Source: Psococerastis gibbosa (lineage: Eukaryota > Arthropoda > Insecta > Psocodea > Psocidae). From it: a stretch of DNA of 64,000 bases. This document shows positions 6,799 through 24,700 of this stretch, in pieces (positions within the stretch are counted from its first letter, which is position 1; every line of letters starts with the position of its first letter). Where the stretch lies: positions 45,295,039 to 45,359,038 of the forward strand of contig OZ020487.1 in assembly GCA_963971405.1 (NCBI GenBank), read 5' to 3'. A program made the position numbers and the translations under genes. The notes below the pieces were generated by a model. The model had not been told where the DNA came from. It worked only from the letters and a program-made list of their open reading frames with translations, and made no database searches.

Positions 6799-6858
6799 CT
6801 CCATTGTAGGCACGACGAATCCCATTTTCTCTCAACTGCCCATTAATGATGTCTTCGT
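6799..6858 (-). CDS. Gene 2 exon 6: short phase 1-1 exon
   Basis: 60-bp exon bounded by TTGTTTATTTGCAG and GGAG|GTAAGC and open in phase 1 (DEDIINGQLRENGIRRAYNG). It follows exon 5 in the correct phase after a 2.3-kb repeat-filled intron. It is not a copy of exons 2-5. NGIRRAYNG contains a dibasic pair followed by a possible short peptide. The gene must continue: no stop occurs here, and I could not identify the terminal exon between 1 and 6790, so it may lie beyond the left edge. Confidence 0.5.
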
Positions 6859-6956
6859 CTGCAAATAAACAATAACATCAAAAACAAAACGTATTTTATA
6901 TTTTTTATTAACTCTCTTTTAAAATATATACATACTGTATGTACATATTTACATAC

Positions 6957-7020
6957 GTCAGGCGGGGTTTCCATTGACGTCAATATAGTGACAGTAATGG
7001 TGATATTGACGTGATTCTTC
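6957..7020. repeat. Partial FB-B-like arm
   Basis: AGGCGGGGTTTCCATTGACG resembles an FB-B left arm, with GATATTGACGTGATTC as a poor right arm. It is probably a truncated or unrelated palindrome. Confidence 0.3.
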
Positions 7021-7194
7021 ACCACTTATATTTTTCCATTTCCATAATCTAAGGGTAGATACATGGACCGAGGGCTTCCGACTGAAGCCGCTCACCAAAC
7101 TTTGATAGAAGAGGTATTTAAAGCAGAAGAAGAAGAGGCAAGGGACTCACAGTGATCGAATAATAAGGGTGGAGCCCGTTGTAAGGGGTAGAGG

Positions 7195-7240
7195 GCGACG
7201 TTTCGGGAGTGGGTGTTACTCCCCTCATCAGGCTTAAGGT
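7195..7240 (-). other. Hammerhead-ribozyme-like core
   Basis: Leftward sequence has CTGATGAG, a 6-bp stem GGGAGT/ACTCCC with 7-nt loop, then GAAAC and GTC: the conserved core order of hammerhead ribozymes. Flanking bases give only about 2 bp for stem I and no proper stem III, so activity is doubtful. A decayed relative is at 32010-32090. Confidence 0.3.
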
Positions 7241-7300
7241 AAGGACTCATGGTTTCTGGATGGATTAACTTATTGCTTTTCTGAATTATTGATTGAGTCA

Positions 7301-7521
7301 GGACATGTAGAGCAGTGGTGCGGGCTCTGAATTCCACCCGAAAGGTGGTTGGTTCGAGTCTCACACTAGCTACATTTTCTGGCCATGCTTCGGAGGGCAT
7401 GTAAAGCAGGCGGTCCCGGGTCTTCTTAGTTGAGTGTAAGAGAGAGCTTTATAGCCCTAATTCCGCTAGGTTGGCTTAGTAATAGAACAACAAAAGTCGT
7501 TATTTAATTTAATTTAAATCC
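7301..7521 (+). mobile_element. SINE-T2 copy 1
   Basis: tRNA-related head with A box TGTAGAGCAGTGGT and B box GGTTCGAGTCTC. The body has CATGCTTCGGAGGGCATG and CCGCTAGGTTGGCTTAGTAA, and the tail is TTTAATTTAATTTAA. Confidence 0.75.
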
Positions 7522-7764
7522 GATCTCCATGAGGATTCTCTAACCGTTAGCCCCTAGACAGCCCTGCTCCACCCGAATTGATCGATGACTGTGAGGCCCC
7601 TGTCTCTAATGACGATTAATACAACTTACAATGTATGTTAGTCCAACTAACCCTTTGTTGGCTTTGTTAAATAATATTACACCATTATCATTATTATTTA
7701 CCACTAGATTTTAACGCTACTAAGAACCTGGGGGCTGGGACCCAAAGTCAAGTGCACTGCGTTT

Positions 7765-8030
7765 TTCGAAGGACTTTTTCTGGACCCAGGCCTACTTATA
7801 GTGGCCCATAGGTCCCTTGTCCAATGCTAACGAAACCATGGATTTCGGACATTATTTGTATTGTTTACTTATGAATTTTTGGCCATTGGCAAACTGGTAT
7901 ACGTATACGTTTGTCAACTTACCCCGGCTACAAGCGATAATGGACAAGCTGAGACAAGCTTACCATTCACGTAATGAAACAGGAGAAAGCGTGACTAACC
8001 AATTACAGATACGAGTCCCACAGCGTTTAC
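7765..8030 (+). repeat. Repeat F, copy 3
   Basis: Opposite orientation: GGACCCAGGCCTACTTATAG, then CGGCTACAAGCGATAATGGA. Confidence 0.55.
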
Positions 8031-9195
8031 TTAGCTTTCCACAAATTTTATTTGATATTTTAAAAAAACCACATGGGTCCGATCTAGTTGACAAACTCAA
8101 AATCATACAGTTTCATTTAATCTCCGCCAGATGACATTACTTGTTAATGGTGGGAACAAGCCCCTACACCTCCATACGATTTGCTTGCGGAAGTGGGGAC
8201 CAATAGAAGATCCGCCATCTTTTGGCCTCACATTTTCGCGCCAAATGAAACTATAGGCCTAGTTATCTTATGGTACCTAACCCAAAATTTTTAAAACAAA
8301 AAAATGTGTCTTTATTAAATATTTAGGCTGTCTAACTTCATTATTATAATTAATATGCTTTCCCAAAATAGCTGAAAATTATGTGGATTAAAAATAAACA
8401 ATAGCATCAAAAAAGTTCAATCCTCTAAAACAGCAACTGTACTGTACCCTATGAAATTTAAAATGTAGCAAATGCAAAATTAAATTATAGCAATAACAAC
8501 AGGGCAACAAAAAGGTATTTTCTCTTCGTTTTTAAATAAAATACAGAATACCACCTGCTGTGAGCCCAAAAATCAAATGACCATGCGACACTAGCGCCAA
8601 TGGTACTTCTAGTATATTATATTAGAAGTTCTTTGGGTGGGAACTACAGTTCCCACTCCCTCCTCAACGGTGACATGACGTTTAGGCAGTGTTTTAAATG
8701 TTCAGCAAGCATTGGGGGGTTGTGTTTTTTTTTTTTTTTTTTTTTACATAGAAATTAAGGAATTTCTTGAAACACGGCTGCAAAAAGCTTATGCATTATG
8801 AGAATAATAGCTTCAGAAGACTTCATAAAAAATACATGCTGGACAGTGCATACTTTTTCGTGTAACTCATACTACCTACCTATACAAAATATTGTAGACA
8901 CTTAGACTTAATTCTAATATAAATTTGAAATGCGCGCCTTCCTCTAAGTTGCCGATGAAAGCATTGGGAGTTGCGCAGTCGCAGTTACTGTCCAAATTGA
9001 AGAAACTGAGCACTTAACGTGTTTTTCAGAGTATTAATAATGGTTAGGAATAGTCCAGACTACATTTATGCGAAGTAGCAGGGCGAGCTTCGAAACTGGA
9101 CAAAGGTAAAATTTCCCTAATTTTACAGGTAACACATTTTCAAAATGTGAAGCAGGGCATGCTGCTGACCATGACATATGAAATGGAGTAGTTCC
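8031..9195. other. Gene 2 intron 5, mostly unannotated
   Basis: Repeat F ends near 8030. The rest is AT-rich with a poly-T run and no recognisable element or in-phase exon. Confidence 0.4.
8728..8745. repeat. Poly-T run
   Basis: About 18 T. Could be the tail of a minus-strand retroposed sequence, but no body was identified. Confidence 0.5.
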
Positions 9196-9199
9196 TTAC

Positions 9200-9337
9200 C
9201 CTGTTTTGGTGACAATTTGAACGACATTCCCTTTTTCTGGTTCGCCAGCAGTGCTTTATAGAAATCGTCATAGAAAAATTTGAAATCACTCGGATCCACT
9301 CTTTGGATTGGAGAATCTTTTAGACGATTTGGGGAAG
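9200..9337 (-). CDS. Gene 2 exon 5: duplicated exon, 46-codon type
   Basis: 138-bp exon, acceptor TTTATTTTGTAG and donor CAGG|GTAAGG, phase 1-1. The product starts SPNRLKDSPIQRVDPSDF, continues through DDFYKALLANQKKGM and ends FKLSPKQ. It matches exon 2 in the extra LLANQ block, so the array order by type is long-short-short-long. RR is QR here, so a dibasic site present in the other copies is lost. Its upstream intron was enlarged by FB-I carrying a 5S-like SINE. Confidence 0.68.
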
Positions 9338-9394
9338 CTACAAAATAAAAGATAACAACAGTACCTAAATCATTTGACCAGAATAGGTTTCTTG

Positions 9395-10134
9395 TTTAAG
9401 GCTGAGTGTTTTGTAAACAAGAAATTTTGCTGAATTTTTGACGGAAATAATTTATTGCTCATTCCACAGATAAAAAGGTGTTGTTGTTTCTAACGCCTGC
9501 TTTCAGAATTTCTGCTTTTTAAGCAACCCTGTCAGCCTGGCGGGGGGAGTGAGTCTGTTTGTTAACTTGAGGCACCCTATGGGCAGACTCTTTCACCTCG
9601 GGGAAAGGGGAGTTGACTGACAGGGTGAACCTCCTGATTATAGTGGATTCCGAACCACTTGGGGAACATGGTAAAGTCACACGATTAAATCGGAGGTGAC
9701 CAGGACTCTACTTATACTGCCAAAGCGCGTTATCATGTCCCACCAGGTTCCCCTGCCAACGCTGTGCACACTACCTAGTTGCCGCAGTTTGAAACATGCT
9801 CTGCTCTAATGAAATCAACATGGTAAGGCCGTTGGCCCACAGATACAAAGATAACAAAGTGAACAGATAAAAAACTCATAAAAAATCCAAGTTATCGCAG
9901 GAAGTTTATATTTTCTGAACTGAAATATTTTTACCTTAAAAAAAATTGGATAAAGAGCCTTAAACCCATTTTGTAGCACAGTTGTAAATCTGTAAGGGAA
10001 ATAGACAGCTTTCACAGAAAGCTCGTATTTTTTAAGATTTTATCATTGTGGCTGTGGAACGAGCAATTAATTAATTTCGTCCAAAAGTACGATAATTTCT
10101 TGTTTACAAAACATTTTGAACACTCAGGCTTAAG
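9395..10134. mobile_element. FB-I copy interrupted by a 5S-like SINE
   Basis: The same element as 60647-61040 with a 364-bp SINE (9473-9836) inside its left half. Without the SINE the two copies align over nearly their whole length. It is located in gene 2 intron 4 between motif M and exon 5. Confidence 0.8.
9473..9836 (-). mobile_element. 5S-rRNA-like SINE, copy nested in FB-I
   Basis: Read leftwards, the head GCCAACGGCCTTACCATGTTGA resembles the 5' end of 5S rRNA. Further in, GGCAGGGGAACCTGGTGGG resembles the 5S box C region. The tail is A-rich (AAACAACAACACC). The 9-bp duplication CCACAGATA flanks it (9464-9472, 9837-9845), the mark of retroposition. Confidence 0.7.
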
Positions 10135-10225
10135 TTTATAAACATCGATTAAACTCGGTGTTCCACTTATGCAAGTTTTCGAATAAACAAAGTGTTCCAA
10201 GTGCCATGCTATCGTGGTCATAATA
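10133..10225 (-). repeat. Motif M, copy 1 (gene 2 intron 4)
   Basis: Segment of about 90 bp present upstream of gene 2 exons 5 and 3 and upstream of candidate gene 3. On the minus strand it includes GGAACACTTTGTTTATTCG and a 23-codon frame beginning MALGTLC or similar that ends shortly after TTTATTCGA. No copies were seen elsewhere in the window. It probably travelled with the exon duplications rather than being an independent transposon. Confidence 0.5.
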
Positions 10226-10252
10226 CTGCAGTGTATTGCATAATTATGGAAT

Positions 10253-10470
10253 AAAGTAAGCTTACAGGCCTGTTTGGGTAGATAGTTGTGTAGCTGTGCT
10301 AACCTCTCTAGCAATAGGAATCTGATCAAAGAGCATATACAATACATCGAGGATTTAGCAGACACTAGACTTGTCAGGCAGTGGTTAAGACGACGCCCCG
10401 ATTCGGCGTAGATTGTGGGTTCGAATCTCGCAAAGTACAGTTTTTTCTAAATCCCCTAATTTCTAATCTT
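10253..10470 (+). mobile_element. SINE-T1 copy b (gene 2 intron)
   Basis: Degenerate cloverleaf (ACGCCCCGATTCGGCGT, GGGTTCGAATC) with the same 5' and 3' flanks. It lies upstream of exon 4 within the duplicated unit. Confidence 0.65.
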
Positions 10471-10559
10471 AGTCTAATGTCAGTATTATACTAAAAGTAG
10501 CATACCGCAATATATTTATCTTTATGAGACGCATCAAGGAAGCGTCCAAAGTTCCTTAC

Positions 10560-10688
10560 CCGGTTTTGTGGACAATTTGAATGCCATTTCCTTCTTTATT
10601 GCTGCTTTATAGAAATCGTCAGAAACAATTTTTAAATCCCCAGGATCCATTCTTCGGATTGGAGAATCTTTCAGACGATTTGGGGAAG
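10560..10688 (-). CDS. Gene 2 exon 4: duplicated exon, 43-codon type
   Basis: 129-bp exon, acceptor TTTATTTTATAG and donor CCGG|GTAAGG, phase 1-1. The product starts SPNRLKDSPIRRMDPGDL, continues through DDFYKAAIKKEMA and ends FKLSTKP. The flanking intron (GCGTCCAAAGTTCCTTACC on the plus strand) is also conserved between copies. The duplication therefore covered exon plus intron, including the tRNA-like SINE just upstream. Confidence 0.7.
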
Positions 10689-10744
10689 CTATAAAATAAA
10701 AGATAACAGCAGCACTAAATTATTTGTGAATGTTGTTTTATTTG

Positions 10745-10905
10745 ATTTGAATCTGGTCAATGAGCATATACCTAGGTAAGTAGACGATTTAGCAGACACT
10801 CCACTTGTTACGCAGTGGTTAAGACGACGTCCCGATTAGACGTAGATCGTTGGTTGTAATCTCGCAAAGTACAGTTTTTCTCAATCCACTAATTTCTAAT
10901 CTTAG
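10745..10905 (+). mobile_element. SINE-T1 copy c (gene 2 intron)
   Basis: GCAGTGGTTAAGACGACG, TTAGACGTAGATCGTTGG and CTAATTTCTAATCTTAG occur in the same relation to exon 3 as copy b to exon 4. Confidence 0.65.
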
Positions 10906-10997
10906 TGTAATGTCAGTACTATACAGTGCTATAAGTAGCATACCGTAATATATTTATCTTTATCAGAAGCATCACGAAAGCGTCCAATGTTCCTTAC

Positions 10998-11126
10998 CCG
11001 GTTCTGTGGACAATTTGAATGGCATTTCCTTCTTTAATGCTGCTTTATAGAAATCCTTAGAAACAAATTTTAAATCCCCCGGATCCATTCTTCGGATTGG
11101 AGAATCTTTTAGACGATGTGGGAAAG
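10998..11126 (-). CDS. Gene 2 exon 3: duplicated exon, 43-codon type
   Basis: 129-bp exon, acceptor TTTATTTTATAG and donor CCGG|GTAAGG, phase 1-1. The product starts FPHRLKDSPIRRMDPGDL, continues through KDFYKAALKKEMP and ends FKLSTEP. It is nearly identical in layout to exon 4, and their 3' ends are 438 bp apart. The intron upstream holds motif M, a SINE-T1 copy and FB-H. Confidence 0.7.
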
Positions 11127-11184
11127 CTATAAAATAAAAGATAGACAGAAATTATTTGTCCCAGAATCTTGGTTTTTGGTTTAT

Positions 11185-11275
11185 GTTTATAAAAATCGAA
11201 TAAAGTCGGTGTTCCGCTTATGCAAATTTTCCAATAAACAAAGGGTTAAAAGTGCCATCCTATCGTGGTGACGTG
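11185..11275 (-). repeat. Motif M, copy 2 (gene 2 intron 2)
   Basis: Second copy, about 60 bp upstream of the exon 3 acceptor, with a few substitutions relative to copy 1. The position relative to the exon matches copy 1 once the FB-I insertion there is subtracted. Confidence 0.5.
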
Positions 11276-11489
11276 GTTGGGTAATTCAAACTATATAGAA
11301 TAATACCATTTACGATATCGTATTACTGCTGTATAAAGTACTATAATTCAATGGTTCCACGGAATAACGTTTTCAGGAGAGTTTTTTTTTTGGTTTCTGT
11401 CTTAACAAGTTACAACGTTCCTCCACGCTAAATGAAATGAAAATAGGTATTGAGTCGACATCTATCGGAATTTCATCAAATTAAAAACA

Positions 11490-11740
11490 CAGATCGGTAA
11501 GTAAGCTCGCAGACCTGTTTGGTTAGAAAGATGTGTAGCTGTGCTAACCTGCCTAGCAATACGAATCTGGTCAAATCTGGTCGTACTTATATATATAAGT
11601 AGACGATTTAGCAGACACTACACACTAGACTTGTCAGGTAGTGACGACCCCCGGTTAGGCGTAGATCGTGGGTTCGAATCTTGCAAAGTGCAGTTTTTTC
11701 TAAATCCCCCAATTTCTAATCTTAGTTTAAATGCCAGTAT
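11490..11740 (+). mobile_element. SINE-T1 copy d (gene 2 intron)
   Basis: The 5' part is complete (GACCTGTTTGGTTAG). The D arm is deleted, the anticodon stem region CCCCGGTTAGGCGTAGATC is present, and the B box is GGGTTCGAATC. It belongs to the unit of exon 2. Confidence 0.65.
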
Positions 11741-11770
11741 TACACTATAAGTAGTATAGCCTATACCATA

Positions 11771-11966
11771 TGAAGACGTCAGGGGAAAAACCGGAAAGGT
11801 GCACTTTTGGTTGAAATTTAGATAATGGTGGCATTCAGTTTTTAACGTAGTTTTAAATGACCTAACAAAACCAAAGAAAAACAAGTAAGCTACTTTAAAC
11901 TTTAAAATTCAATTTCTGAAAAATCAACTTTTGATCACCTTTCCGATTTTTCCCCGGACGTTTTCA
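11771..11966. mobile_element. Foldback element FB-H, copy 1
   Basis: Ends TGAAGACGTCAGGGGAAAAA and its near complement near 11945-11966. It is preceded by TA and followed by TG, so the TA duplication seen at copy 2 is mutated here. It was inserted into the duplicated SINE-exon unit of gene 2 intron 1-2 after that duplication. Confidence 0.7.
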
Positions 11967-12040
11967 TGTATACTAACTAGTAATACTGCCATGCATGTCT
12001 CTTTGTCAGACGCATCACGGAAGCGTCCAAAGTTCCTTAC

Positions 12041-12178
12041 CATGTTTCGGGGACAATTTGAATGGCATTTCCTTGTTCTGGTTCGCCAGCAGTGCTTTAT
12101 AGAAATCCTCAGAGAAAAATGTGAAATCACCCGGATCCATTCTTCGGATTGGAGAATCTTTTAAAAGATTTGGGGAAG
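12041..12178 (-). CDS. Gene 2 exon 2: duplicated exon, 46-codon type
   Basis: 138-bp exon bounded by TTTATTTTATAG and CATG|GTAAGG, open only when read phase 1 to phase 1. The product starts SPNLLKDSPIRRMDPGDF, continues through EDFYKALLANQNKEM and ends FKLSPKH. It belongs to a set of four tandem exons sharing LKDSPIxRxDPxD, DFYKA and FKLS. This longer type carries LLANQ, absent from the 43-codon type. The symmetric phase lets copies be gained or lost without frameshift. I recognise no domain. The RR pair inside the repeat could be a processing site. Confidence 0.7.
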
Positions 12179-12194
12179 CTATAAAATAAACTAT

Positions 12195-12965
12195 ATATAG
12201 TATGTATATACTGTATATTTATTTATATGTATAGTTAAGAATTACACCGAAAAAATATGGGTTTTAATAAGCAACTTTAATTTGCGACTGTCGATACAAG
12301 ACTGACTACGTTACAATATGAGATGCAAAACCAACGTTCCTATGTTGCTAATTCATTAGCACGTGCCAGGTCCTTGTAAACTTGGAGAAGAGGCCACGTA
12401 ACTATACATGTAATAAATGAATAGGTACTTATAATTTACATATAGGCCTATGTAAATATACTAATAACTCCGTGATAATTTAGAAACCATTGAGATTTGG
12501 GAAGCTATATGATTAAAAACAAAACGTTATTTAATGACATAACCTTTTTAAGTAGTTCTCCCTTGCTAGCGTTACCATTGGTTAATGTTAATGTTAATGT
12601 TAATTAATGTAATTGTTAATGTTCAATATAAAATTGTTTACTTTATGCGATGCTGTGTGTATCTTGCATACCGTTTTGTTTTGTCTGTTTTTCAAGTGCA
12701 CTTGACGATGGCGTGAGCCGAAACCGGTTGTGTGTTTTTTTTTAAACGTAAAACTGTACGAAGTAATTTTTAACAGTGAGTGACAGTATATTTTACAAAG
12801 TTATTAAGGAGACTATTATGTTTATTAGATGTACTATATTATGTGTATATATATGTTTAATTTAATTTGTTACTAAGGTGTGTTGATGTGTGTTACGTAC
12901 GTACAATATATGTATATTTTAGAAGAAAGTTAATCAAAATTAATTTTGTTCTTTATGTTATTGGC
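12195..12965. other. Gene 2 intron 1, non-repetitive part
   Basis: AT-rich. Near 12702-12730 is GACGATGGCGTGAGCCGAAA, a small stem-loop followed by GAAAC that recalls the hammerhead-like relics. No exon was seen. Confidence 0.35.
12579..12625. repeat. (GTTAAT)n microsatellite
   Basis: Imperfect GTTAATGTTAATGTTAATG run. Confidence 0.6.
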
Positions 12966-12970
12966 CCTTA

Positions 12971-13355
12971 GGCGCTCATTCCACCGACCGGCTAGGGCTA
13001 TTTACAAAAACAGTGACCTGACAGACATTCAAGACTTAGGCGGGGTTTCCACCGACCTCGCATTGCAGAATTGACGGAAATGTTTATTTTCCTCTATGCC
13101 CATAGTTAAAATTGATCAATGATCATACAGTAAAATCACAAACAAACAAACTAAAATTAAAAAATGGCGTCATGGGATATGTTAAGTACAAACATTTTAA
13201 TAGATTTCTATAAAAAGAAAAATTCTAATTTCCGTCAATGTCATTTGCATTCTGTAATGCGAGGTCGGTGGAAACGCCACCTAATAAGTCTTGAATGTCT
13301 GCTACCACGTCACCGTTTTTGTAAATAGCCCTAGCCGGTCGGTGGAATGGGCGCC
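12971..13355. mobile_element. Foldback element FB-A, copy 1
   Basis: 385-bp palindromic element with very long inverted arms (over 100 bp) starting GGCGCTCATTCCACCGACCG and ending in its complement. It is flanked by TTA on both sides (12968-12970, 13356-13358), fitting the 3-bp TWA duplication of PIF/Harbinger MITEs. It lies in gene 2 intron 1, with 10 intron bases between its flanking TTA and the exon. Confidence 0.85.
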
Positions 13356-13368: not shown

Positions 13369-13453
13369 CGTGTCTGGCATCTGCAGTTGTGATGGCAAGC
13401 AACATGATCAGCATAAAATTATAGAAAACCGTTTTCTCCAAACTTGAAGTCAT
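13369..13453 (-). CDS. Gene 2 exon 1: signal-peptide exon
   Basis: Encodes 28 residues plus one base, starting MTSSLEK, with hydrophobic core VFYNFMLIMLLAITTA and a likely cleavage near ADA-RH. It ends G|GTAAGT (donor at 13367-13368), phase 1. An upstream in-frame ATG at 13528 would put 25 charged residues before the signal, so the inner ATG is preferred. The same length and phase as gene 1 exon 1 argues for common descent, although the residues are diverged. The intron begins with only 10 bases before a foldback element (FB-A, target duplication 13356-13358). The next in-phase exon leftwards is 12041-12178, where the junction codon becomes Ala. Confidence 0.7.
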
Positions 13454-14749: not shown

Positions 14750-16149
14750 AAAAAACAATACGCAAAGCATTGAAGTAAGCATTGTAATGGAATGGTTGTT
14801 TTATCACAATTCAGTAAAATGTAACGGAAATGGCATTTCGTATTTCTAGGCCAAATATAACGTGCTCTACCTATATATGTATGACGCTATTGTTATTATA
14901 CAATAAAGTGACTGTGGTGTTCTGCGATAGCTCAGGAAAATAAAATAAGTACCTAACTCACAACAGGGGCGTATCCTATTAAGCTAATAACTAGGAACTC
15001 CAAATTACGCTCCTGAAGGTTTAGGTACCTATGAAAATAGAGTGGACTGTATGAAAATAATATGATTTGGTAAGAATAAGAAATAAAAGAATAAGCCTAC
15101 CGTACTCTGCTTACTCGGTGAAGGTGTAGTACAGTAGGTAGACCTATTATAATATGTAATGTATAGTGTGGTGCTGTAAGGTGTCTGGGTGTATGTGTTT
15201 TGAGTGAATAGGCTACGCTACTTATCTACTGCCGGAGTCCGTGGCTTGCAAAGTATCCGCAGGAATCACAGCAGGGGCGAGCACAATAAACACTGTTTAA
15301 TATAAAGAATAATAACACAAACAAGAAAACACTACAACCACAACTAATAAAATTATTGTAAATAACAATAGGTATATAATTAAATAAATATAGAACCTAT
15401 CGGAGCCGATACAATATTAAGACTGAATGCAGGGTGCGGGGTAGAGTACCTAGCAGATTTTAGGGGTAGGTAGGTACCTCTGCGACAACAACCCGCAACT
15501 ATGTTTAGCTTGTGCAATGCGAGGCATTCACGGACAGTGACAGTACAACCTAGAACGCCGTGATAAAAATTAAGCAATTTAGTGGTGAGTGACACATGCA
15601 CTAGTTTTACAATATTTTATAATCGTATTTAAATTTCAATGCTTTCGGGTTACGTTCGATTGCGTTATCTCCAATATCGACATGGTTAGATGCGGCGGAG
15701 GCTTGATAATAAAATTGATAGTTCCAAAAAAATGTATACATTTTTTAACAGGTTTTATTAGGAGTCCTGCTGGTAATATAGCATTAATTGTTACTTTTGC
15801 GTTCTTTTTAACTAAGTTACAACTTGTGGCAACCATTTTGTGGAACTACAATAGATCAGATTATTTTTTAGAATTAGTAACTGTTAGTAAGTCTGTTTTT
15901 TCTTAACACTTCGACACTACAGCGTCTCAAAGCCGTTTTATTGCCAGTGGTAATAATTTGTGGCGACATAACCTGCTATTTAAGAATTAACGGCTTCTTG
16001 TAGTTGTTGCCCCAGTCCGTGGATTATTAACAGTTTTGTAAGCAAACCCTCATTAATTGTCATCGTTAATAACTTGTAACATTAGCGAGTTCTTTATTAA
16101 TATCCCAGCCAGTAGGTTTTGTGAATTTCATGGATTATTAATTATTGCC
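14750..16149. other. Region between genes 1 and 2, nothing certain
   Basis: Frames at 15380-15601 (-) and 15589-15906 (+) show no domain. A GC-richer island near 15220-15290 and 15410-15550 is unexplained. Gene 2 promoter elements should lie upstream of 13453, but I could not recognise any. Confidence 0.35.
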
Positions 16150-16527
16150 TGAAAACAACAGCTGAAACAACGCTAAAACAACGCTGCATTTTGCGGTATC
16201 GACGCATTTTCTCACATTAGTTTCCTCAACAGTGCTTTGAAAGTTGTTTCAATAACACGCGGCAGTTCGGCTGTTCGGCTGTTCATAGGCACGTTTACTA
16301 GTTGTTGCTTACCAACCTTGATAAAATTAGATGGTGTTAACGGACAGTTTGTCTTTGCCAGTCGCACAGGCTTAAGTACCAAATGCTGGGGGGGATTTAA
16401 CATATTTTGTGGTATTTACGGAATATAAGTTAATGCCTGAGACAACGCTGCGTTTTGTGGCATCAGTTTACTCAACAAAGCGTTTATTAGCTGTTGCTTC
16501 CCGGCATTAATTACGAGAGGCACCATA
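16150..16527 (-). pseudogene. Decayed continuation of the gene 1 repeat array
   Basis: Beyond the gene 1 stop codon the same repeat continues in shifted frames. One frame reads MVPLVINAGKQQLINALL and on to QNAALSQALT, then hits TAA. Another frame reads CPLTPSNFIKVGKQQL, then LLRKLM and a stop. More worn remnants (PQNAAL-like) reach about 16150. A short deletion relative to the intact unit, next to 16530-16560, causes the frameshift that ends the protein at LVI. Either the array lost its 3' units by mutation, or the present C-terminus is an assembly or sequencing artefact. Confidence 0.6.
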
Positions 16528-17573
16528 TTATATGACCAGTTTCATATGAAAGTTTGCTTGATGTTTCTTACCAGCCTTGATCAAATTAGATGGCGTTAAC
16601 GGACTGTTTCCCATTTCCCGTCGCACAGGCATAGGCGCCAAATGCTTGCGTTTTAACAGGTTTTGTGTTATTGACGGAATAGAAGTTAACGCCTGAGACA
16701 ACGCTGCGTTTTGTGGCATCAATTGCTCCAACAAAGCCTTTATTAGACGTTGCTTCCCGGCATTAATCAGGTTTGGCACCATATTATGTGGCATCAGCGG
16801 GCTTTCGATCAGTTTGTTATGAAATTCGCTTAGATGTTTCTTACCCGCCTTGATCAAATTAGACGGCGTTAACGGACTGTTTCCCATTTCCCGTCGCACA
16901 GGCATAGGCGCCAAATGCTTGCGTTTTAACAGGTTTTGTGTTATTGACGGAATAGAAGTTAACGCCTGAGACAACGCTGCGTTTTGTGGCATCAATTGCC
17001 CCAACAAAGTCTTTATTAGCCGTTGCTTCCCGGCATTAATCAGGTTTGGCACCATATTATGTGGCATCAGCGGGTTTTCGATCAGTTTGTTATAAAATTC
17101 GGTCAGATGTTTCTTACCCGTCTTGATCAAATTAGATGGCGTTAACGGACTTTCTACCTTTCTCTTATGCACAACACCCGTTAGGCGTTGCTTACCAGCT
17201 TTAATCAAATCAGACGGTGATAACGGGCTCTTTGTTATTCTCCGACGCATACGGTGATGCGATGACTGATAGGCTTTTAACACTTTCATCAACGCAGCAT
17301 CGTTTAGACGGCCAGCTCTAACAATGGGTATCATGACGTTATGTGACATTAATAACGGATGCTCCAAAATCTCTGTTAATTCTGATAGATCCTGCTGTTT
17401 TGCTTCGGGATGATGTTTGGGCTTTTGAATATCTGTTAACAGTGACCCCGGGAGCTCTTTCACCTCAATATTGTCTGGTTGGTATGATAGTGGATCTTTG
17501 GGGTTCCCCTCAATGCTGGTCAGTTGTTCTCCAGGTTTACTGTCCTCGTTCATTTCTTCTGTGCCTTTACTTA
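16528..17573 (-). CDS. Gene 1 exon 2: tandem-repeat peptide precursor body
   Basis: Acceptor TTTTTATTTCAG (17574 upward) opens a phase-1 exon of 347 further codons ending in TAA at 16528-16530, giving a 376-residue secreted precursor with exon 1. Residues about 30-140 are a mixed spacer. Residues about 104-142 hold a diverged repeat (HPLLMSHNVMIPIVRAGR) followed by RMRRR. Two 91-residue repeats follow (about 170-260 and 261-351, six differences by eye) and a truncated third. Each unit contains SPLTPSNLIKxGKKH, SPLMPHNMVPNLINAGKQR, LLKRK and PVRRE. KR and RR pairs and Gly-Lys-Lys are typical prohormone-convertase and amidation contexts, so several short peptides per molecule are plausible. The repeated cationic helices also resemble multi-peptide antimicrobial precursors. 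I recognise no named family. The DNA repeat period is 273 bp. Confidence 0.72.
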
Positions 17574-17612
17574 CTGAAATAAAAATAATAATAAATAACC
17601 TTATGGTATGAT

Positions 17613-18294: not shown

Positions 18295-18470
18295 CAGTAG
18301 CTGATTGGTTCCTTGTCTAATGCCAACAACCCCATGGATTTGTATGCCATAAACTTTGGCCATTGGCAAACTGGTATACCTATAACCTTGACGTCAATCT
18401 ACACGGCTACCAGTTGTAATAGCAAAGATGAGACAAGCTTACCATTGACGCAATGTAATAAGCGAATGCA
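18295..18470 (+). repeat. Repeat F, copy 6
   Basis: TTGGTTCCTTGTCTAATGCC, GGCCATTGGCAAACTGGTAT and GACAAGCTTACCATTGACGC. It lies in the gene 1 intron. Confidence 0.5.
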
Positions 18471-18489
18471 TGACTTAAGTCAGGAGACA

Positions 18490-18715
18490 GGACATCAGCT
18501 AGAGTAGTGGTACAGACTCCGACTTTCGCCCAAAAAGCCCAGCAAAAGGTTGTAGGTTCGAGTCCTATACTTGCTACATTTTCTGGCTATGCTTCGGAGA
18601 GCATGCAAAACAGGCGGTCCCGGGCCCTCCTAGTTGAGTGTAATACAGGGTTACATTTAATAGCTCTAACTCCGCTTGGATGACTTAGTAATAAAACAAA
18701 AAATCAATATTTCTT
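18490..18715 (+). mobile_element. SINE-T2 copy 3
   Basis: Full length: CTAGAGTAGTGGTACAGACT, GGTTCGAGTCC, GCGGTCCCGGGCCCTCCTAG and the tail CAATATTTCTTTATG. It lies directly left of FB-A copy 2 in the gene 1 intron. Confidence 0.72.
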
Positions 18716-18766
18716 TATGTATGTACATAACCAAACACATATACGAATCCTTTTGCAGTTACCTTA

Positions 18767-19150
18767 GGCGCCCATTCCACCCACCGGCTTGGGCTATTTA
18801 CAAAAACAGTGACATGGCAGCAGACATTCAAGACTTAGGGGGGGCTTCCACCGACCTCGCATTGCAGAATTGACGGAAATGTTTATTTTCCTCTATGCCA
18901 TAGTTAAAATTGATCAATGATCATACAGTAAAATCACAAACAAACAAACTAAAATTAAAAAATGGCGTCATGGGATATGTTAAGTACAAACATTTTAATA
19001 GATTTCTATAAAAAGAAAAAATCTAATTTCCGTCAATGTCATTTGCATTCTGCAATGCGAGGTCGGTGGAAACGCCACCTAAGTCTTGAATGTCTGCTAC
19101 CACGTCACCGTTTTTGTAAATAGCCCTAGCCGGTCGGTGGAATGGGCGCC
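18767..19150. mobile_element. Foldback element FB-A, copy 2
   Basis: 384 bp, nearly identical to copy 1, flanked by TTA on both sides (18764-18766 and 19151-19153). It lies in the gene 1 intron. No coding capacity. Confidence 0.85.
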
Positions 19151-19494
19151 TTAAGAGACAATCACATGAAGTCAAATTTCACAAGAAATCATCAATTAGG
19201 TTGCATACAATAGAAGAAATGTTCACCTACATTTCGATAGATTGTATATCGTTATTAATAGCGTCTGCTGCTAAAGATCTGAAGCCCCACCTTCCATAGC
19301 TATTGTTAATAACGGCCCCAAACTATCTGCAAAAACGTTGAGGAGGTTTTCCTCTAAGTTATTCATTATTTCGGAAAACGCTGAAAATGAAAATCAGGTT
19401 TAATGTCTGGTCGTCTCTAATAAGACCTGTTCCGACCATCGCAATCGCTTGATAAGAATCGTTAGGGAATGCTGGACGGCACCCCTATCTCCCA

Positions 19495-20012
19495 ATGCAT
19501 ATTGGTGCCGGGTGGAATGTCCACCTGCAGTGGATTCCGAGCCACGTCAACATAGCCGGTAACGAACTAGCTGACCAGTTGGCAAATCAAGGCGCAGAAG
19601 CGGTCCAACCGGACGTCCCGCAATCACTTCAAGCGGCAAAAAACTGTATCGACGGAAAGATATCAAAAGCTACACACGATCAACTAAAACTTTCGAGCGT
19701 CGGCAAACAGTGGGAGCCTTTATCTAAGCCCGGATTGATTCCACATAACATGGAACGGAGGGACGCCGTAGCACGGTTCAGGCTCATAACCGGCCACGAC
19801 TACCTGCAGGCGCATCTACACCGCATAGGCCTGGCTGACAACGACACCTGTCCACTCTGCTCACAGGCCGCTCAGACAGCTGCCCATCTACATAGCATAG
19901 ATGTCCAGCTCTCGATTCCCTTCCTCAAAATCTTACAACGCGATATTGGGAGACTCGACGTCGAATGGCTCACCTGCCACAGACGGGCGTTGGCTAAAGT
20001 AAAGTAAGTAAG
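19495..20012 (+). mobile_element. 3' fragment of an RNase H-bearing LINE
   Basis: An open frame of 170 codons begins inside an RNase H domain: WIPSHVNIAGNELADQLANQ is the last catalytic block. It continues to a C-terminal zinc-binding-like region (NDTCPLCSQ, AAHLH) with an apparent internal deletion after HLHSI. The tail is TAAAGTAAGTAAG at about 19998-20012. RNase H plus a CPLC finger points to the I/R1-like group of non-LTR elements, a different clade from LINE-A and LINE-B. It is 5' truncated. Confidence 0.75.
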
Positions 20013-20224
20013 TATATTGGTGCCGTGCTGTATTCCTTACTGTATTTCTTACTGTTAAAAGAACACACCTTCTTATAATTCTGTAGACGCAAATTAAAGA
20101 AAGTTTCGCTCTAAATTGGGACTTGGTTCTTCAATAATTTACTATATTATAGTAAATATTTAACCGAAATTTACTATTTTGTATTAAAATTTAATATATT
20201 TTCATTTTTATTTTATTTTGTCTT

Positions 20225-20400
20225 TATAAAAGATTAATCGCATACAAACAATTTAATGAATGTATCCGATTGATCTCTTCAGTCGCCTCTGCAGGTACCC
20301 GTGTTGAGCTACGACACGTCTCCGATCGCATGGCGTGTAAAGACTCGTACAAGTGCAAGCACGTTACCACCTGGCCATCGAAGTCAATATAATAAATAAA
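20225..20400 (-). mobile_element. SINE-T3 copy 1
   Basis: Leftward: GGCCAGGTGGTAACGTGCTT as A-box-like head, GCGATCGGAGACGTGTCG in the B-box position, and GCGACTGAAGAGATCAATCG in the body. It recurs at three other sites. Confidence 0.6.
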
Positions 20401-20430
20401 TAAATAATAATAATGAGGACTTTCTATTGT

Positions 20431-20535
20431 TTCTATTACTAAGCCAACCTAGTGGATTTAGGGCTATAAAGCCCTCTCTTACACTCAACTAGGATGGCCC
20501 GGGACCGCCTGCTTTACATGCCCTTCGAAGCATAT
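20431..20535 (-). mobile_element. SINE-T2 copy 4, 5' truncated
   Basis: Complement body only: TTACTAAGCCAACCTAGTGG, AGGATGGCCCGGGACCGCC and GCCCTTCGAAGCAT. It abuts a SINE-T3 copy and a TATATA run. Confidence 0.65.
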
Positions 20536-20960
20536 ATATATATGTAAGCAATATAATACATTACTGAAAAACCAAGTCCGAATTCAGAGTGAAATAGACA
20601 TTCTTTAACTTTAACTATAAACCTCATAGAATAAATATTTTAATAATATTATAATATTAATATTAATATTTTAATAATATTTGGTAAACCTAGGTTTATC
20701 AGCAAGCATATTGTATTTGTTGAAACATAGGCTGGCATTTTCACCCTGTCTTTTCATATGGGGGTAATCTTCTTATTAGGAAACGAAACTACTCTATGGA
20801 ATTTATATTATTTATTTATATTATTTATTTATTTCAGATCAAGTATTGTCTGAATTTTACACTGTTTTTTATCGAATAGGTAACATTAAAATTTATTATG
20901 AATGCAAAGTAAATGAAATCGAAGAACTTATTCAATCCATTTCACTCGCTAGGTACTTAC

Positions 20961-21045
20961 CCTTGGCATTTTCAGTGCTGGGGTTAGCAGATACTTCTAA
21001 GAGTAAAAAACCTAGCACAGAATATATTAACATTTTGAAGGCCAT
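20961..21045 (-). CDS. Gene 1 exon 1: signal-peptide exon of secreted repeat precursor
   Basis: First coding exon of a two-exon gene read leftwards. It encodes 28 residues plus one base: MAFK start, a hydrophobic core (LIYSVLGFLLLEV) and a probable signal-peptidase site after VSA, so the product should be secreted. The exon ends G|GTAAGT (donor at 20959-20960), a phase-1 junction that fits the acceptor of the exon at 16528-17573; the junction codon becomes Val. An in-frame TAG lies 12 codons upstream and this is the first in-frame ATG after it. The exon length (28 codons + 1 base) is identical to that of gene 2 exon 1. A 78-codon plus-strand reading frame overlaps it but lacks a signal or any recognisable domain, so I treat it as antisense shadow. 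Splicing is inferred, not observed. Confidence 0.72.
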
Positions 21046-21082
21046 TATCGATTTATCAACTGCCGCTATAAAGTTATACTAA

Positions 21083-21954
21083 GGAATGTGATCAGGTAAT
21101 CGTGGTTATTCGCTTAAATAACGTCAGAATTGTTATTATAGGTAAAGCGATATCAGTGGAACAAATTTTAATGTCGCCATTATAGTTCATGTTACTTAAT
21201 ACAGCCATGTTCATTATTTTTAATTACTATTTCCTGTGTACACAGTACGTTATATATATTAACGGTATAATTATTTAATTTTTATTAGGCAGTAAAGGAA
21301 TGTTACGGAAATATTTTGTTATTTACACTATTAATATTTAATTTTTATTGTAAAGCTAATACGTCGCATGCATGCAAAAAGCGATTTGTCACAAAAAAAA
21401 ATTTTTAGTTGGTCGTATCATTGGAATCGTCGAATTGACTGCTACCAGAAATGTAAGGAAAAGTCTAATGTGATTCTTATATTACCAAATGAAGTGCCTA
21501 GAAGCAAAGGGGTGCAAGTGACATTTTTTACGGTTTGAAGTTAAATGCACCATGCTGTTACTTTAGCTGGTTTTTATCCTATAAACCAAAACAGGAACAT
21601 CGGGATCTGTCATTTTGGCAATTCTAGAATTCATGGAAAAGGGTTATACCTATACATTTTCATTTGAGTTACAAACTTTAGCGTCAATTATTTCGAATGT
21701 TTATTTCTGTCACTTACAACCCTTGGGCTCTAATCGCTTCAAATAATATTAATAAAAATATATTGTAAATATACAGAATATACATAGTAATTATATTATG
21801 TATAATGCTGAAGCATTTAGATTTTAGGAGTTTTTTTGTCTCTCCTGCATTTACGGTTTCAAGTGACAAATTGCCTTTTGCATACATGCCCTTCAATTAC
21901 TGTTTGCTGAATTTGGTCACTTGCTGACCCTATCTGCCACTTTTTATTTTTCAT
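21083..21954. other. Gene 1 upstream region
   Basis: AT-rich. A promoter would be expected here, but I see no convincing TATA-initiator arrangement. Confidence 0.35.
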
Positions 21955-22552
21955 TTCAGTTAATACCGCGCAGTTATAAATACATACTCCTCAATTATGG
22001 AAATGTGAAAAGAATAGAAAAAGCTCAAATCAAATTAGCAAAATTCTTGGAAAAAAGGTTTTTGAATAATGCTACTGTAAATTTTTCGAATCTTAATCCA
22101 GATTTTTATATATCCTTATTGAAAAAAATTGATTTAGTATCACTCGAGAAGAGAAGGAAATATTGCTATATTTCATACCTTTGGAAAGTTTTAAATTTCA
22201 AAGAAGATAATATTTACTTTTTGGAGAAAACTAGTTTTAATGCTAGAATTAGAGTAAACCGCTCAACTGCCATTTTTGTTATTTCAGGTGGTAGAGTAAA
22301 TATTTCGTTATTTTCGACCATTAACAGGGTGTGCAGAGAAGCCAATAGCTGCCCAAGCATTGACTTCTTTGGACACTCTGAAATACATGTAAGGAAAAAC
22401 GTTTTTGATTAATTTTTTTTCTCTGTACCTACATTTCTGATCAAGTAATCACTGTATCTATATAATCAATTCACACTTTTATTTTGTACTTTGTAATTGG
22501 GGGCAACCCTGTATTTGTACAATATATATATTTCTATTTCTATTTCTATAGA
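21955..22552 (+). mobile_element. 5'-truncated LINE, ORF2 C-terminus and tail
   Basis: About 150 open codons match the end of a Jockey/CR1-like ORF2: the RIEKAQIKLAKFLEKR and LEKRRKYCYISYLWKVLNF motifs are the usual segment after the reverse transcriptase. The element ends in (TTTCTA)n at about 22528-22552. It lies between candidate gene 3 and gene 1 and is not a host gene. Confidence 0.65.
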
Positions 22553-22637
22553 TTTTATTGTTTTCATTCAGAAAGCCTGCAAGATTACAATAAACGTTAC
22601 CAAAAATAACCCTTTATATATATTATACATAGGCCAG

Positions 22638-22806
22638 AAATTTTTTTTCGGGAGGGGTCTATCTGACGCCACCAGAGGTAAGGTAGCCTCAATATATTTA
22701 AAACTCCATTCTATCTAGTGTACGTTTATATATATTATATATATTTATATAGTGTATATTTCGGGAGGGGTCCGGACCCCCAGCCCCCCCCCCTCTGGCT
22801 ACGGTC
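22638..22806. repeat. Repeat J, copy
   Basis: AGAAATTTTTTTTCGGGAGG start, TCCATTCTATCTAGTGTA in the middle, and CCCCCCCCCTCTGGCTACGG end. Confidence 0.45.
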
Positions 22807-22989
22807 TTGAGAACATGAGTGTGCTTGGCGTTCTACTGGTATTCATAGGGAAGTGTAGGTCTAGATGTGTTCCAAGGGGCATGCAGGAGACTATTTCTTG
22901 TACAAAACCGCCCGTATTATATTATATATAATAATATGTGGGATGACGTTCATTAAATAAATAAATATATAAATATATATATATTGACT

Positions 22990-23175
22990 ATTTAGTTTTA
23001 TTAATAAGCCAACCTAGATGAGATAGGACGATAAATTATTACACTCAGCTAGGAAGACCCGGGATTGCCTGCTTTACATGCCCTCCCAAGCATTGCCAGA
23101 AAATGTAGCAAATGTGGGTCTCGAACCAACAACCTTTCGGGTGAAAGTCGGAGTCTGTACCACTAATTTACATGA
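22990..23175 (-). mobile_element. SINE-T2 copy 5
   Basis: Full complement: AATAAGCCAACCTAG, GGGTCTCGAACCAACAACCT and GTACCACTAATTTACATG. Confidence 0.7.
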
Positions 23176-23179
23176 CATA

Positions 23180-23599
23180 GGTAAAAGTTGATCAAAACGA
23201 TTCCAGCTATGTAAACAGCTCATTTGATGGAAAAAGGCAAGTTACCCTGGTTGACCTGTGTACGCCAGTATAGAATACGGTACGTGTAACTGATTCGAGA
23301 AAGGTCAACAAATCGGAGGTATAACTGCATGTAATTATCCAACATTCGCTGACTTTTGACATTTATTCTGAACTGCAGTAAATTTTTCACCTGCTAGTGT
23401 CCAACTTTAATTGCTATCCCATATGAATAACACTATATACTGTACGTGTATGTTGGCACCTACATCTCTCAATTTGTCAGTAGTCAATGCATTTGTTCAT
23501 ATCGTTCACCGGGCACATTAAGTAAGTAAGTACATCGTTCACTTTTTTCCCCTTGAGTATGCCAATTATATTGTAGTATGAATTAACAAAAATAACAAA
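23180..23599. other. No supportable gene
   Basis: AT-rich, with a (TAAG)n run at 23518-23531 that may be a LINE tail. Confidence 0.4.
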
Positions 23600-23836
23600 T
23601 GTGGCACTCATATTGTCATGAAGTGTACGCCAATGGCAGCGGTATGGATGGCTTGACCTACTTTGGGCCTGGTGTGTTGAACCTGCTGACAATGCCGACA
23701 ATAAGTACCTAGTGTGTAAGCATTGTACAGCCGACGTCCAAGAAGGGAGGCACGAGCCAGGCCCGGGGTTGCCCAAGAAGTCCAGGGGTGAACATGGAGA
23801 CCTGCGATTTCCATCAATACATCTGAGATCAATCAA
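23600..23836 (-). mobile_element. Possible LTR-retrotransposon integrase fragment
   Basis: The leftward frame contains ARASLLGRRLYNAYTLGTYC followed by RHCQQVQHTRPK. The histidine pair upstream and the YCRHCxxxQ arrangement resemble the H2C2 zinc-binding start of gypsy-type integrases. No reverse transcriptase, protease or LTR was seen nearby, so this is a short relic at best. Confidence 0.3.
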
Positions 23837-24006
23837 TCCGGCCTTCTCTTATTTAGGGTAAGTTCCTTCTAGATGTTATATGGTACCTCAGATTCACCCT
23901 GACCTCTGAATCTGAGGGATCATACGACAATATAAGCCTTGGCTTGAGGTTATTTCCCCATTGGATTAAAGACCTGGATTAAAGATGATCGTGCGTTGTT
24001 GTTTCT

Positions 24007-24320
24007 AACCGAAATTAGAGGATTTAACAAAAAAATTGACTTGGTGGGATTTGAACCCACGGTCGTCACCTATCCGAGGCATCATCTTAACCGCTGGACA
24101 ACAAGTACAGTGCCTTCTAATTCATCTTCTTACTGTATATGTTATTTTATTGACAAGACTCGTGTTAGGCATTATAGGCGTAGATTGAGGGTTCAAATTC
24201 TGCCAAATTTAGTTTTTTCTAAATCTTCTAACTTAATAAAAATATATTTAATATATTTTATGTAACGAGGAGTTTACCTCTACAACCTATGTTTGTTTAA
24301 TGTCAGTGTTACATACCATT
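24007..24320 (-). mobile_element. SINE-T1 copy e
   Basis: ATTAGAGGATTTAACAAAAA followed by TGGGATTTGAACCCACGGTC and TCTTAACCGCTGGACAACAA. Fragments of a second, plus-strand copy (GGCGTAGATTGAGGGTTC) continue to about 24320. It lies just downstream of candidate gene 3. Confidence 0.6.
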
Positions 24321-24512
24321 TAATATTGCAATATACAGTATATTGAGCTGTTGCTTCTTATGAAAAAATGACCTCAAAATTTAGGGACTTGAACCAGCAG
24401 CCTTTTGATCGTAAAGTCCTCAGCCCTTACCACTAAACTAAACTAATTAAGCTGACATAAGCAACTTACCAATTTACAGGTAAGTAACCGTGTATTATAT
24501 GAAGGTGATTTC

Positions 24513-24700
24513 TCACATTTGACTAACGACTGAAGAACTGTCTTTTGACATTTTTTTTGCAATTCCCCTAATTTTCCGTCTTTTTTTAACGAGGGACTTA
24601 GCGATGAAGTTGGGGGGCAATCCATCAGCCCTGTCCTTATCATAATCTATCATTTCAACTTCCCCCATCATATAATTCCTGTATAACAATGTTTTCTCTC
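24513..24700 (-). CDS. Candidate gene 3: terminal exon of a related secreted precursor
   Basis: Acceptor TTTTCTTATAATACAG opens a phase-1 exon of 61 codons ending TGA at 24513-24515. The product runs GEVEMIDYDKDRADG then LPPNFIAKSLVKKRRKIRGI, ending SSSVVSQM. The acidic segment before LPPNFI and a KKRRK cluster recall the spacer-plus-LTPSNLI-plus-basic layout of gene 1, and the acceptor phase is the same. A copy of the intronic motif M of gene 2 lies about 350 bp upstream. The matching signal exon was not found. It could have been displaced by LINE-A or be out of view. Homology to genes 1 and 2 is inference from weak similarity, phase and context. Confidence 0.42.

Follow-up and report, generated by a model that had tools for sequence, protein, structure and literature searches.

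The window, a 64,000-nucleotide stretch of DNA from the barkfly Psococerastis gibbosa that matches chromosome 4 (PMC12559846), carries two minus-strand genes, which look real from their sequences and are predicted to encode secreted repeat proteins. An initial annotation had described three loci; two of them, referred to here as gene 1 and gene 2, hold up, and the third, at 24.7 kb, does not. The support consists of frame-consistent exon models, repeats, matches confined to a single locus and, for gene 1, conservation limited to the exons. The secretion, transcription and function of both genes are inferred. Barkflies are relatives of lice, and orphan, rapidly changing secreted proteins are frequent in insects. 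Genes 1 and 2 are probably secreted orphans of an ordinary sort, in which the record of duplication is unusually clear. Among the titles listed by narrow literature searches, none concerned barkfly secreted proteins.

Gene 1 and its duplicated exons

The predicted exons of gene 1 are as follows.

13369..13453, minus strand: signal exon (MTSSLEKTVFYNFMLIMLLAITTADARH) with a phase-1 donor, from a hydropathy scan
12041..12178, minus strand: module exon A, 138 nt, phase 1-1
10998..11126, minus strand: module exon B, 129 nt, phase 1-1
10560..10688, minus strand: module exon C, 129 nt, phase 1-1
9200..9337, minus strand: module exon D, 138 nt, phase 1-1, with QR in place of the RR of modules A–C
6698..6858, minus strand: probable terminal exon E, with a phase-1 acceptor and a TAA overlapping AATAAA (6702-6697)

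The predicted product has 259 residues and no Cys, and the internal exons are in phase 1. The whole duplicated exons noted earlier correspond to the four tandem modules A–D of this gene, which encode 43–46 residues each and are all open; a length difference of 9 nt is the only one among them. The predicted junction 13369|12178 proved exact. The donor proposed at 6799 was not retained: the frame reads past it to the TAA at 6700-6698 that overlaps AATAAA, and exon E is therefore probably terminal.

The module exons are 82–92% identical in pairwise comparison and their flanks 60–77%, with one exception at 90%. Exon identity exceeds flank identity in all six module pairs (Fisher p from 5.6e-8 to 0.008), and the splice motifs are kept in all four module exons. 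A comparison of synonymous and nonsynonymous change was significant in none of the six pairs (p = 0.083–1.0), and four stop-free copies arose in 21% of the runs of a neutral simulation at 8% divergence per copy. Because neither the codon test nor the stop-free copies reach significance, the argument for selection on gene 1 rests on the exon-limited conservation, a pattern that gene conversion could also have produced.

The gene had been read as a peptide precursor with dibasic motifs, and this reading fails. It has 8 basic pairs against 9.3 expected from composition, and module D carries QR, so that not every copy of the repeated peptide has basic pairs at its borders. No Gly precedes a basic pair as an amidation site in gene 1, and module A is near neutral and lacks amphipathicity. 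A dibasic peptide logic was rejected for this gene, since its basic pairs do not exceed what composition provides.

Gene 2 and its in-exon repeat

The features of gene 2 are the following.

20961..21045, minus strand: signal exon (MAFKMLIYSVLGFLLLEVSANPSTENAK) with a phase-1 donor
16528..17576, minus strand: body exon, with an acidic first part followed by cationic repeats; stop at 16530-16528
16534..17161, minus strand: 273-bp tandem repeat in the body exon, two full copies and part of a third
16110..16532, minus strand: decayed repeats 3' of the stop, with the frame shifted at a 17-nt gap and internal stops
15937..15942, minus strand: AATAAA, a possible poly(A) signal read from the sequence

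The predicted product has 377 residues, again without Cys. Its body frame runs for 348 codons with no internal stop, which by our estimate far exceeds chance length. The second exon starts at 17576 and not at the 17573 of the proposed junction 20961|17573, as it needs to follow an AG and keep the frame. The 273-bp in-exon repeat was confirmed, with 95% identity between its two full copies and partial copies on either side. The unit corresponds to 91 residues with sub-repeats of their own and no clean mature domain. In the alignment with the repeat unit before it, gene 2 ends early at a gap of 17 nt, and the decayed repeats extend to about 16110. The gene 2 repeats display no clear synonymous excess (dS/dN of 0.05/0.03, 0.22/0.21 and 0.19/0.20).

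The net charge of the body is −7 over its first 97 residues and +31 over the other 251. Basic pairs number 13 in gene 2 against 7.0 expected, a count reached in 52 of 5000 shuffles and inflated by the repeats, and 4 in one unit against 1.4 expected (161 of 5000 shuffles). The amphipathicity of the unit is 0.304 against 0.212 (reached in 10 of 1000 shuffles, for one of five stretches tested). Gene 2 also contains three frames that open with KRK or RR and end with GKK; all three GKK belong to copies of a single motif. One or more frames between a basic pair and GKK arise by chance in 353 of 5000 shuffles. In the part of gene 2 comprising a single count of the repeat and one additional peptide, the observed number is reached in 4 of 5000 shuffles, a figure that double-counts one site and includes a repeat. 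Owing to the excess of basic pairs and the three KRK/RR...GKK frames, a processed precursor is plausible on sequence grounds for gene 2 only, and the earlier dibasic precursor claim survives as a possibility for this gene. The acidic pro-part followed by cationic amphipathic repeats, a feature of insect antimicrobial multipeptide precursors, is found in gene 2 only. No match to a known antimicrobial family was obtained in Pfam at the cut-off or in the PDB below E 1.

Comparison of the loci and their surroundings

As had been noted, the two signal exons are of identical size, each with 85 coding nt and a phase-1 end (13453-13369; 21045-20961). A hydropathy scan, used in place of a dedicated signal-peptide predictor, was positive for both genes, and the description of their products as secreted stands as a sequence-based prediction. 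A scan of the window for a hydrophobic start followed by a phase-1 donor returned four distinct minus-strand donors and no plus-strand ones; the control, 20 first-order Markov sequences, gave 5 candidates (0.25 per strand). The thresholds were loosened after a stricter scan had picked up nothing, not even the two exons that had already been recognised, and again after the exons of the F4 family (below) were found, so these signal-exon enrichments are descriptive.

Phase-1 junctions are indeed shared by the loci, despite the lack of significant sequence similarity. The assignment of all three to one family is not supported by shuffle alignment tests (500 shuffles each), with a borderline result for genes 1 and 2, whose best score was reached in 31 of 500 shuffles. 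The score between the two signal exons was reached in 49 of 500. For the 24.7-kb frame, the best score was reached in 397 of 500 shuffles against gene 2 and in 445 of 500 against gene 1. This third locus consists of a single element.

24516..24700, minus strand: 61-codon frame with a phase-1 acceptor, a candidate only

Its standing as a gene was not upheld. A relaxed scan of 24.7–45 kb gave one weak signal candidate, and the next one upstream, at 47820-47748, adjoins a LINE. By our estimate, many 61-codon frames at an acceptor are expected by chance in 64 kb.

Searched against the whole P. gibbosa genome, the gene 1 module gave three matches at E ≤ 0.001, none of them outside this locus, a single-locus result bounded by a sensitivity at which the known module C was missed. 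The last exon of gene 1 has one match in the genome, and gene 2 has two, the gene itself and its decayed tail. A transposon origin of the two genes was rejected because of these single-locus matches. The impression that no named family is involved was borne out, with no match at the cut-off in Pfam or NCBIfam and none below E 1 in the PDB; the NCBIfam search covered the gene 2 body and module A and carries little weight, as that library is made for prokaryotes. Two Pfam candidates were rejected: DUF3658 for gene 1 (E 0.00017; 22.0 bits, below the cut-off of 23.3; a 29-residue stretch of a repetitive query) and PaaX_C for gene 2 (E 0.0067; 17.2 against a cut-off of 22). Pattern hits in viral contigs (2 for gene 2, 28 for the gene 1 modules) and in prokaryote genomes (8 for gene 2) yielded no confirmed match, an absence expected of insect genes.

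A further orphan family (F4), the third in this region, occupies 62–82 kb and comprises two intact genes as well as broken copies. One broken copy, F4c, reaches into the window.

62590..62831, minus strand: F4c body exon, with a broken frame and 132-bp repeats continuing to about 62150
63978..64000, minus strand: the part of the F4c signal exon inside the window (whole exon 64026-63978)

The tandem gene family that had been proposed exists nearby, in different genes from those originally grouped. The F4 family carries Q/Y/N-containing repeats with two Cys. A resemblance of its Cys loop to plant trypsin-inhibitor loops was considered and dropped, as the prolines are positioned elsewhere. The interval also contains LINE frames, and further frames resemble transposon-derived ones by eye.

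Possible origins and products

We propose, at about even odds, that genes 1 and 2 are two barkfly genes without detected relatives or significant mutual similarity, each with a phase-1 signal exon and a repeat body. Gene 1 would have grown by tandem duplication of a whole exon; as this exon is symmetric, the frame is preserved with every added copy. In gene 2, growth would have come from duplication of the 273-bp unit within a single exon, with unequal exchange as the likeliest cause, and its end would later have been lost through a frameshifting deletion. The earlier statements that the bodies are built from repeats and reflect two duplication modes are borne out in this form, whole exon and in-exon unit. 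The gene 2 product would be a multipeptide precursor from which the acidic pro-part is removed, with cleavage of the cationic repeats at basic pairs. This would release short (x)SPLTPSNLIK(A/T)-amide peptides and/or longer amphipathic cationic pieces, which may act on membranes or receptors. The gene 1 product would more likely be a secreted repeat protein without regular cutting. A glandular role (salivary, silk or reproductive) is our guess for both. If expressed, the two genes are adjacent examples of two routes by which precursors gain repeats, at a locus where broken states of repeat expansion are still legible.

Alternatively, both products could be uncut structural secretions (silk, glue, egg cover or seminal coagulum) in which repeats provide bulk and are free to vary in number. 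Psocids spin silk from labial glands, the gene 2 repeats appear to be under little constraint, the basic pairs of gene 1 are at chance level, and the neighbouring F4 family encodes Q/Y/N-containing two-Cys repeats. However, the composition is by eye not silk-like, with no Gly/Ala/Ser-rich runs, and gene 2 is cationic with an amphipathic unit rather than bland. We regard this alternative as possible but doubtful.

It is unlikely that gene 2 is an amidated neuropeptide precursor, from which VESPLTPSNLIKT-amide (one copy) and EMGNSPLTPSNLIKA-amide (two copies) would be freed between basic pairs to act on a receptor, the remainder being spacer. The signal exon, the flanking of all three copies by an upstream KRK or RR and a downstream GKK, and the rarity of the observed frame count in shuffles (4 of 5000, with the double-counted site and a repeat included) are consistent with such a precursor. 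However, at least one such frame appears in 353 of 5000 shuffles, the related segment SPLSPSDLIKAGKQR has no basic pair after its Gly, and the greater part of the unit falls outside the putative peptide and is repeated as well. We know of no named insect neuropeptide with this type of ending, which also counts against it.

Even less probable is that one or both genes are decaying or never-functional frames, chance survivors in a repeat-rich interval. The truncation of gene 2 with dead repeats behind it, the broken F4c, the lack of significant codon-level constraint in both genes and the LINE and transposon-like frames would fit such decay, but the exon-limited conservation and conserved splice sites of gene 1, the 348-codon open frame of gene 2 and the excess of phase-1 signal exons over the Markov control (at loosened thresholds) argue against it. 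A broader proposal, which we also consider improbable, is that a transposon-rich interval of about 75 kb is the source of three unrelated orphan secreted-repeat families (gene 1, gene 2 and F4), nearly all on one strand, each with a separate phase-1 signal exon and expanding by exon, in-exon unit or whole gene, a nursery of new secreted proteins beside ready-made signal exons.

The favoured precursor reading of gene 2 can be compared with the hymenoptaecin of the ant Camponotus floridanus, described as a multipeptide precursor with a signal and pro-part, one intron within the propeptide region, direct repeats of a domain and basic-pair cutting sites (PMC3415428). Gene 2 has the same general layout, with predicted signal and pro-part, single intron, repeated domains and basic pairs. 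Set against that description, it differs in yielding no family match, in lacking an EAEP spacer and in its 91-residue unit with sub-repeats but no clean mature domain. Gene 1 was set beside the caerulein and magainin precursors of pipid frogs, which are vertebrate; it differs in its 43–46-residue modules, the near-neutral, non-amphipathic module A and basic pairs at chance level (PMC3731216). The pea aphid KQY effectors resemble the barkfly genes as small secreted insect proteins encoded by a signal cassette and small exons; KQY members have a conserved signal region in common and are mostly scattered, whereas genes 1 and 2 have signal exons without significant similarity (PMC7495047). The internal exons of the aphid bicycle genes are of phase 2 with CYC motifs, unlike the phase-1 exons and Cys-free predicted products of genes 1 and 2 (PMC9168663). 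The bicycle genes nevertheless resemble the barkfly set as a fast-evolving secreted family with many same-phase exons, and their multimerised Cys motif can be compared with that of F4.

Predicted exon architecture of the two genes

Gene 1 and gene 2, two predicted minus-strand loci with repeat-built products, are probably real orphan genes for secreted proteins. The exons of gene 1 are as follows.

13453-13369, minus: signal exon, a 28-residue hydrophobic start with a phase-1 end at a GTAAGT donor
12178-12041, minus: module exon A, 138 nt, phase 1 at both junctions
11126-10998, minus: module exon B, 129 nt, phase 1 at both junctions
10688-10560, minus: module exon C, 129 nt, phase 1 at both junctions
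9337-9200, minus: module exon D, 138 nt, phase 1 at both junctions

The module acceptors are near-identical (TTTATTTTATAG in three exons, TTTATTTTGTAG in D), the donor GTAAGGAAC is common to all four, and 22 of 45 columns are common to the aligned translations of the four modules. The donor at 6799 proposed in the initial annotation is not needed. Because the last frame continues for 33 codons past 6799 to a TAA at 6700-6698 that overlaps AATAAA, we take 6858-6698 to be the terminal exon, which gives a predicted product of 259 aa. Gene 2 has two exons.

21045-20961, minus: signal exon, 85 nt, phase 1
17576-16528, minus: body exon, joined to the signal exon for a product of 377 aa in all

The gene 2 body carries a charge of -7 over its first 97 residues and +31 over the other 251. 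Its 273-bp unit is present in two full copies, 95% identical and flanked by partial ones. A shorter motif recurs inside the unit: the segment starting SPLTPSNLIKTGKKHL resembles those starting SPLSPSDLIKAGKQRL (0 of 1000 shuffles) and NPLMPHNMVPNLINAGKQRL (5 of 1000), while a third candidate, HPLLMSHNVMIPIVRAGR..., has no likeness (523 of 1000 shuffles score as high). Aligned to its predecessor, the last unit shows a 17-nt gap, and beyond this gap the frame meets TAA at 16530-16528. Decayed repeats with stops extend as far as ~16110, and an AATAAA lies downstream at 15942-15937. The proposal of two modes of repeat gain is supported as a prediction from sequence, with whole-exon copies in gene 1 and an in-exon unit in gene 2.

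Comparable secreted precursors built from repeats are already known: ant hymenoptaecin (PMC3415428), frog caerulein and magainin (PMC3731216), which are the parallel for repeated exons, and aphid cassette effectors (PMC7495047).

The first intron of gene 1 (~13353-12970) and that of gene 2 (~19149-18765) each contain a copy of a short inverted-repeat element. The copies match at 97-99% across the two aligned stretches (D9, D20), and the element, whose ends were placed by eye, is probably a young MITE.

Conservation and duplication of the gene 1 modules

The module exon copies share 82-92% identity, and their 98-nt flanks 60-77%. The one exception, at 90%, is the downstream flank of B and C, the two modules that resemble each other most. 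Between random 98-mers the figure is 59% (30 pairs, maximum 70%). Exon identity exceeds flank identity in all six pairs (p 5.6e-8 to 0.008, with sites treated as independent). Nei-Gojobori dS/dN values are 0.36/0.15 (A-B), 0.38/0.16 (A-C), 0.16/0.11 (A-D), 0.08/0.09 (B-C), 0.36/0.20 (B-D) and 0.39/0.17 (C-D), and dS differs significantly from dN in none of the six pairs taken singly (p 0.083-1.0). In 20,000 simulations of neutral change by substitution alone, all four copies stayed open in 21% of runs, so their openness is not rare by itself. The gene 1 exon is thus a conserved island with weak codon-level constraint.

Exons A, B and C are each followed by an intron with a related tRNA-like repeat (family D5). 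Therefore, these exons may have spread together with their downstream intron. tRNA-Thr-like (SINE-like) repeats are found at 6449-6562, which scored as a tRNA gene, 10349-10462, 10783-10896 and 11602-11715; the copies in the introns behind A, B and C may record the exon duplications.

Possible peptide release, and relatives

Gene 1 contains 8 basic pairs vs 9.3 expected (a count reached by 3874 of 5000 shuffles), and one module plus the last exon contains 3 vs 3.0. Modules A-C carry RR where D has QR, and no basic pair in gene 1 is preceded by Gly. Module A shows no amphipathicity (732 of 1000 shuffles); the last exon is weakly amphipathic (71 of 1000). Gene 2 has 13 basic pairs vs 7.0 expected (52 of 5000 shuffles, a figure inflated by the repeats), and a single unit has 4 vs 1.4 (161 of 5000). 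Its amphipathicity was equalled in 10 of 1000 shuffles for the unit, 53 for the part before it and 261 for the acidic part. Three KRK/RR...GKK frames predict one copy of VESPLTPSNLIKT-amide and two of EMGNSPLTPSNLIKA-amide. In the part where the repeat is counted a single time, 4 of 5000 shuffles reach the amidation-frame count, in which one site is counted twice and one repeat is included; at least one basic-pair...GKK frame arises in 353 of 5000 shuffles. Amidated peptides from gene 2 are a lead only.

On the basic-pair, amphipathicity and GKK results, gene 2 would most likely act as a multipeptide precursor, with possible antimicrobial-like or receptor action, and gene 1 would be a secreted repeat protein left uncut. 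The earlier description of dibasic peptide precursors thus fails for gene 1 and applies at most to gene 2. Tissue and target of both products are guesses.

The species' own genome (409,210,807 bases, 68 contigs) was searched, with match counts as lower bounds. The module query gave at least three matches at E <= 0.001, namely modules A, B and D; since C was missed, this search is not exhaustive. The gene 1 last exon gave at least one match (itself), and gene 2 at least two, the gene itself and its tail. Many nuclear pieces of mitochondrial COX1 were also seen outside the window, e.g. at C14:11085363-11086704 (at least 43 genome matches at E <= 0.001, of which one falls on C68, the mitochondrial contig). 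Translated with code 5, C68 (17,084 bp) shows frames identifiable by eye as ND2, COX1, COX2 and ATP6, arranged as is normal for insects.

Pfam returned nothing for either gene at curated cut-offs. DUF3658, the best Pfam lead for gene 1, was rejected at 22.0 bits vs a cut-off of 23.3, with a repetitive query. NCBIfam, a library made for prokaryotes, gave nothing at cut-off for the gene 2 body, module A and F4a (a member of the neighbouring family F4), and PDB no match below E 1.

The third locus and the neighbouring F4 family

The initial annotation added a locus at 24.7 kb as a third gene and joined all three in one family. This locus (24700-24516) consists of an acceptor and a 61-codon frame. 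By our own estimate, random codons are stops at a rate of ~7% at the window's base composition, so that such a frame has a ~1% chance per acceptor, and hundreds of acceptors occur in 64 kb. A relaxed scan of 24.7-45 kb picked out a single phase-1 signal candidate, at 34053-33993, which is weak (donor 2.8), and the next upstream, 47820-47748, sits just ahead of a LINE frame. The query has one genome match, itself, and shuffles equal its best local alignment in 397 of 500 cases (gene 2) and 445 of 500 (gene 1). We did not accept the locus as a gene: a frame of its length is expected by chance at many acceptors, its signal candidate is weak and it shows no likeness to gene 1 or gene 2.

The best alignment between gene 1 and gene 2 is borderline (31 of 500 shuffles), and 49 of 500 shuffles score as high as their signal exons. 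Many secreted proteins have a phase-1 junction behind their signal exon, so its presence at these loci is no sign of kinship. A single family is thus not upheld by significant likeness.

A tandem orphan family of the kind predicted for the three loci does lie close by, in a different set of genes, F4. It spans 62150-64000 in the window and 64000-81600 beyond it.

77972-77924 + 76596-76316, minus: F4a, intact, 109 aa
68381-68333 + 67505-67111, minus: F4b, intact, 147 aa
64026-63978 + 62831 onward, minus: F4c, frame broken
65757-65598: body fragment
79345-79393, plus: lone signal exon, inverted
near 81500: decayed signal exon

The 132-bp repeat at 62153-62708 is part of a broken F4 copy. The F4 signal exon (MAHISFILLCALAAII and similar) comprises 16 codons and one base; the phase-1 body exon has two-Cys repeats with Cys-x7-Cys loops (one shorter). 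All genome-wide matches lie at this locus (body 8 of 8, E <= 1; signal exon 5 of 5, E <= 0.01). F4a has no likeness to gene 1 (480 of 500 shuffles) or gene 2 (82 of 500), and no Pfam match at cut-off.

With thresholds set once F4 was already known, 264 kb around the window contains 8 minus-strand and 2 plus-strand phase-1 signal exons, whereas 10 Markov sequences gave 0.2 per strand. Phase-0 and phase-2 counts are 2 and 2 (minus) and 2 and 0 (plus), vs 1.2 and 1.0. Five of the eight belong to gene 1, gene 2 and F4; the others lie at 47820, 14782 and -56637.

At 14782-14686, between gene 2 and gene 1, a further hydrophobic start is followed by a phase-1 donor (MLTSMLCVLFFYLMVRVRLVPKPSDFMPRCVN), and a weak start of this type (MLNMGYGALLILAAQQVAATN) stands at 1903-1840, within a longer frame. 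Two LINE-type elements, 27547-30519 and 47521-44504, carry long reverse transcriptase and endonuclease frames (Pfam); the frames upstream of them, 26025-26816 and 49286-48597, are ORF1-like by eye, and many other long frames are transposon-like by eye.
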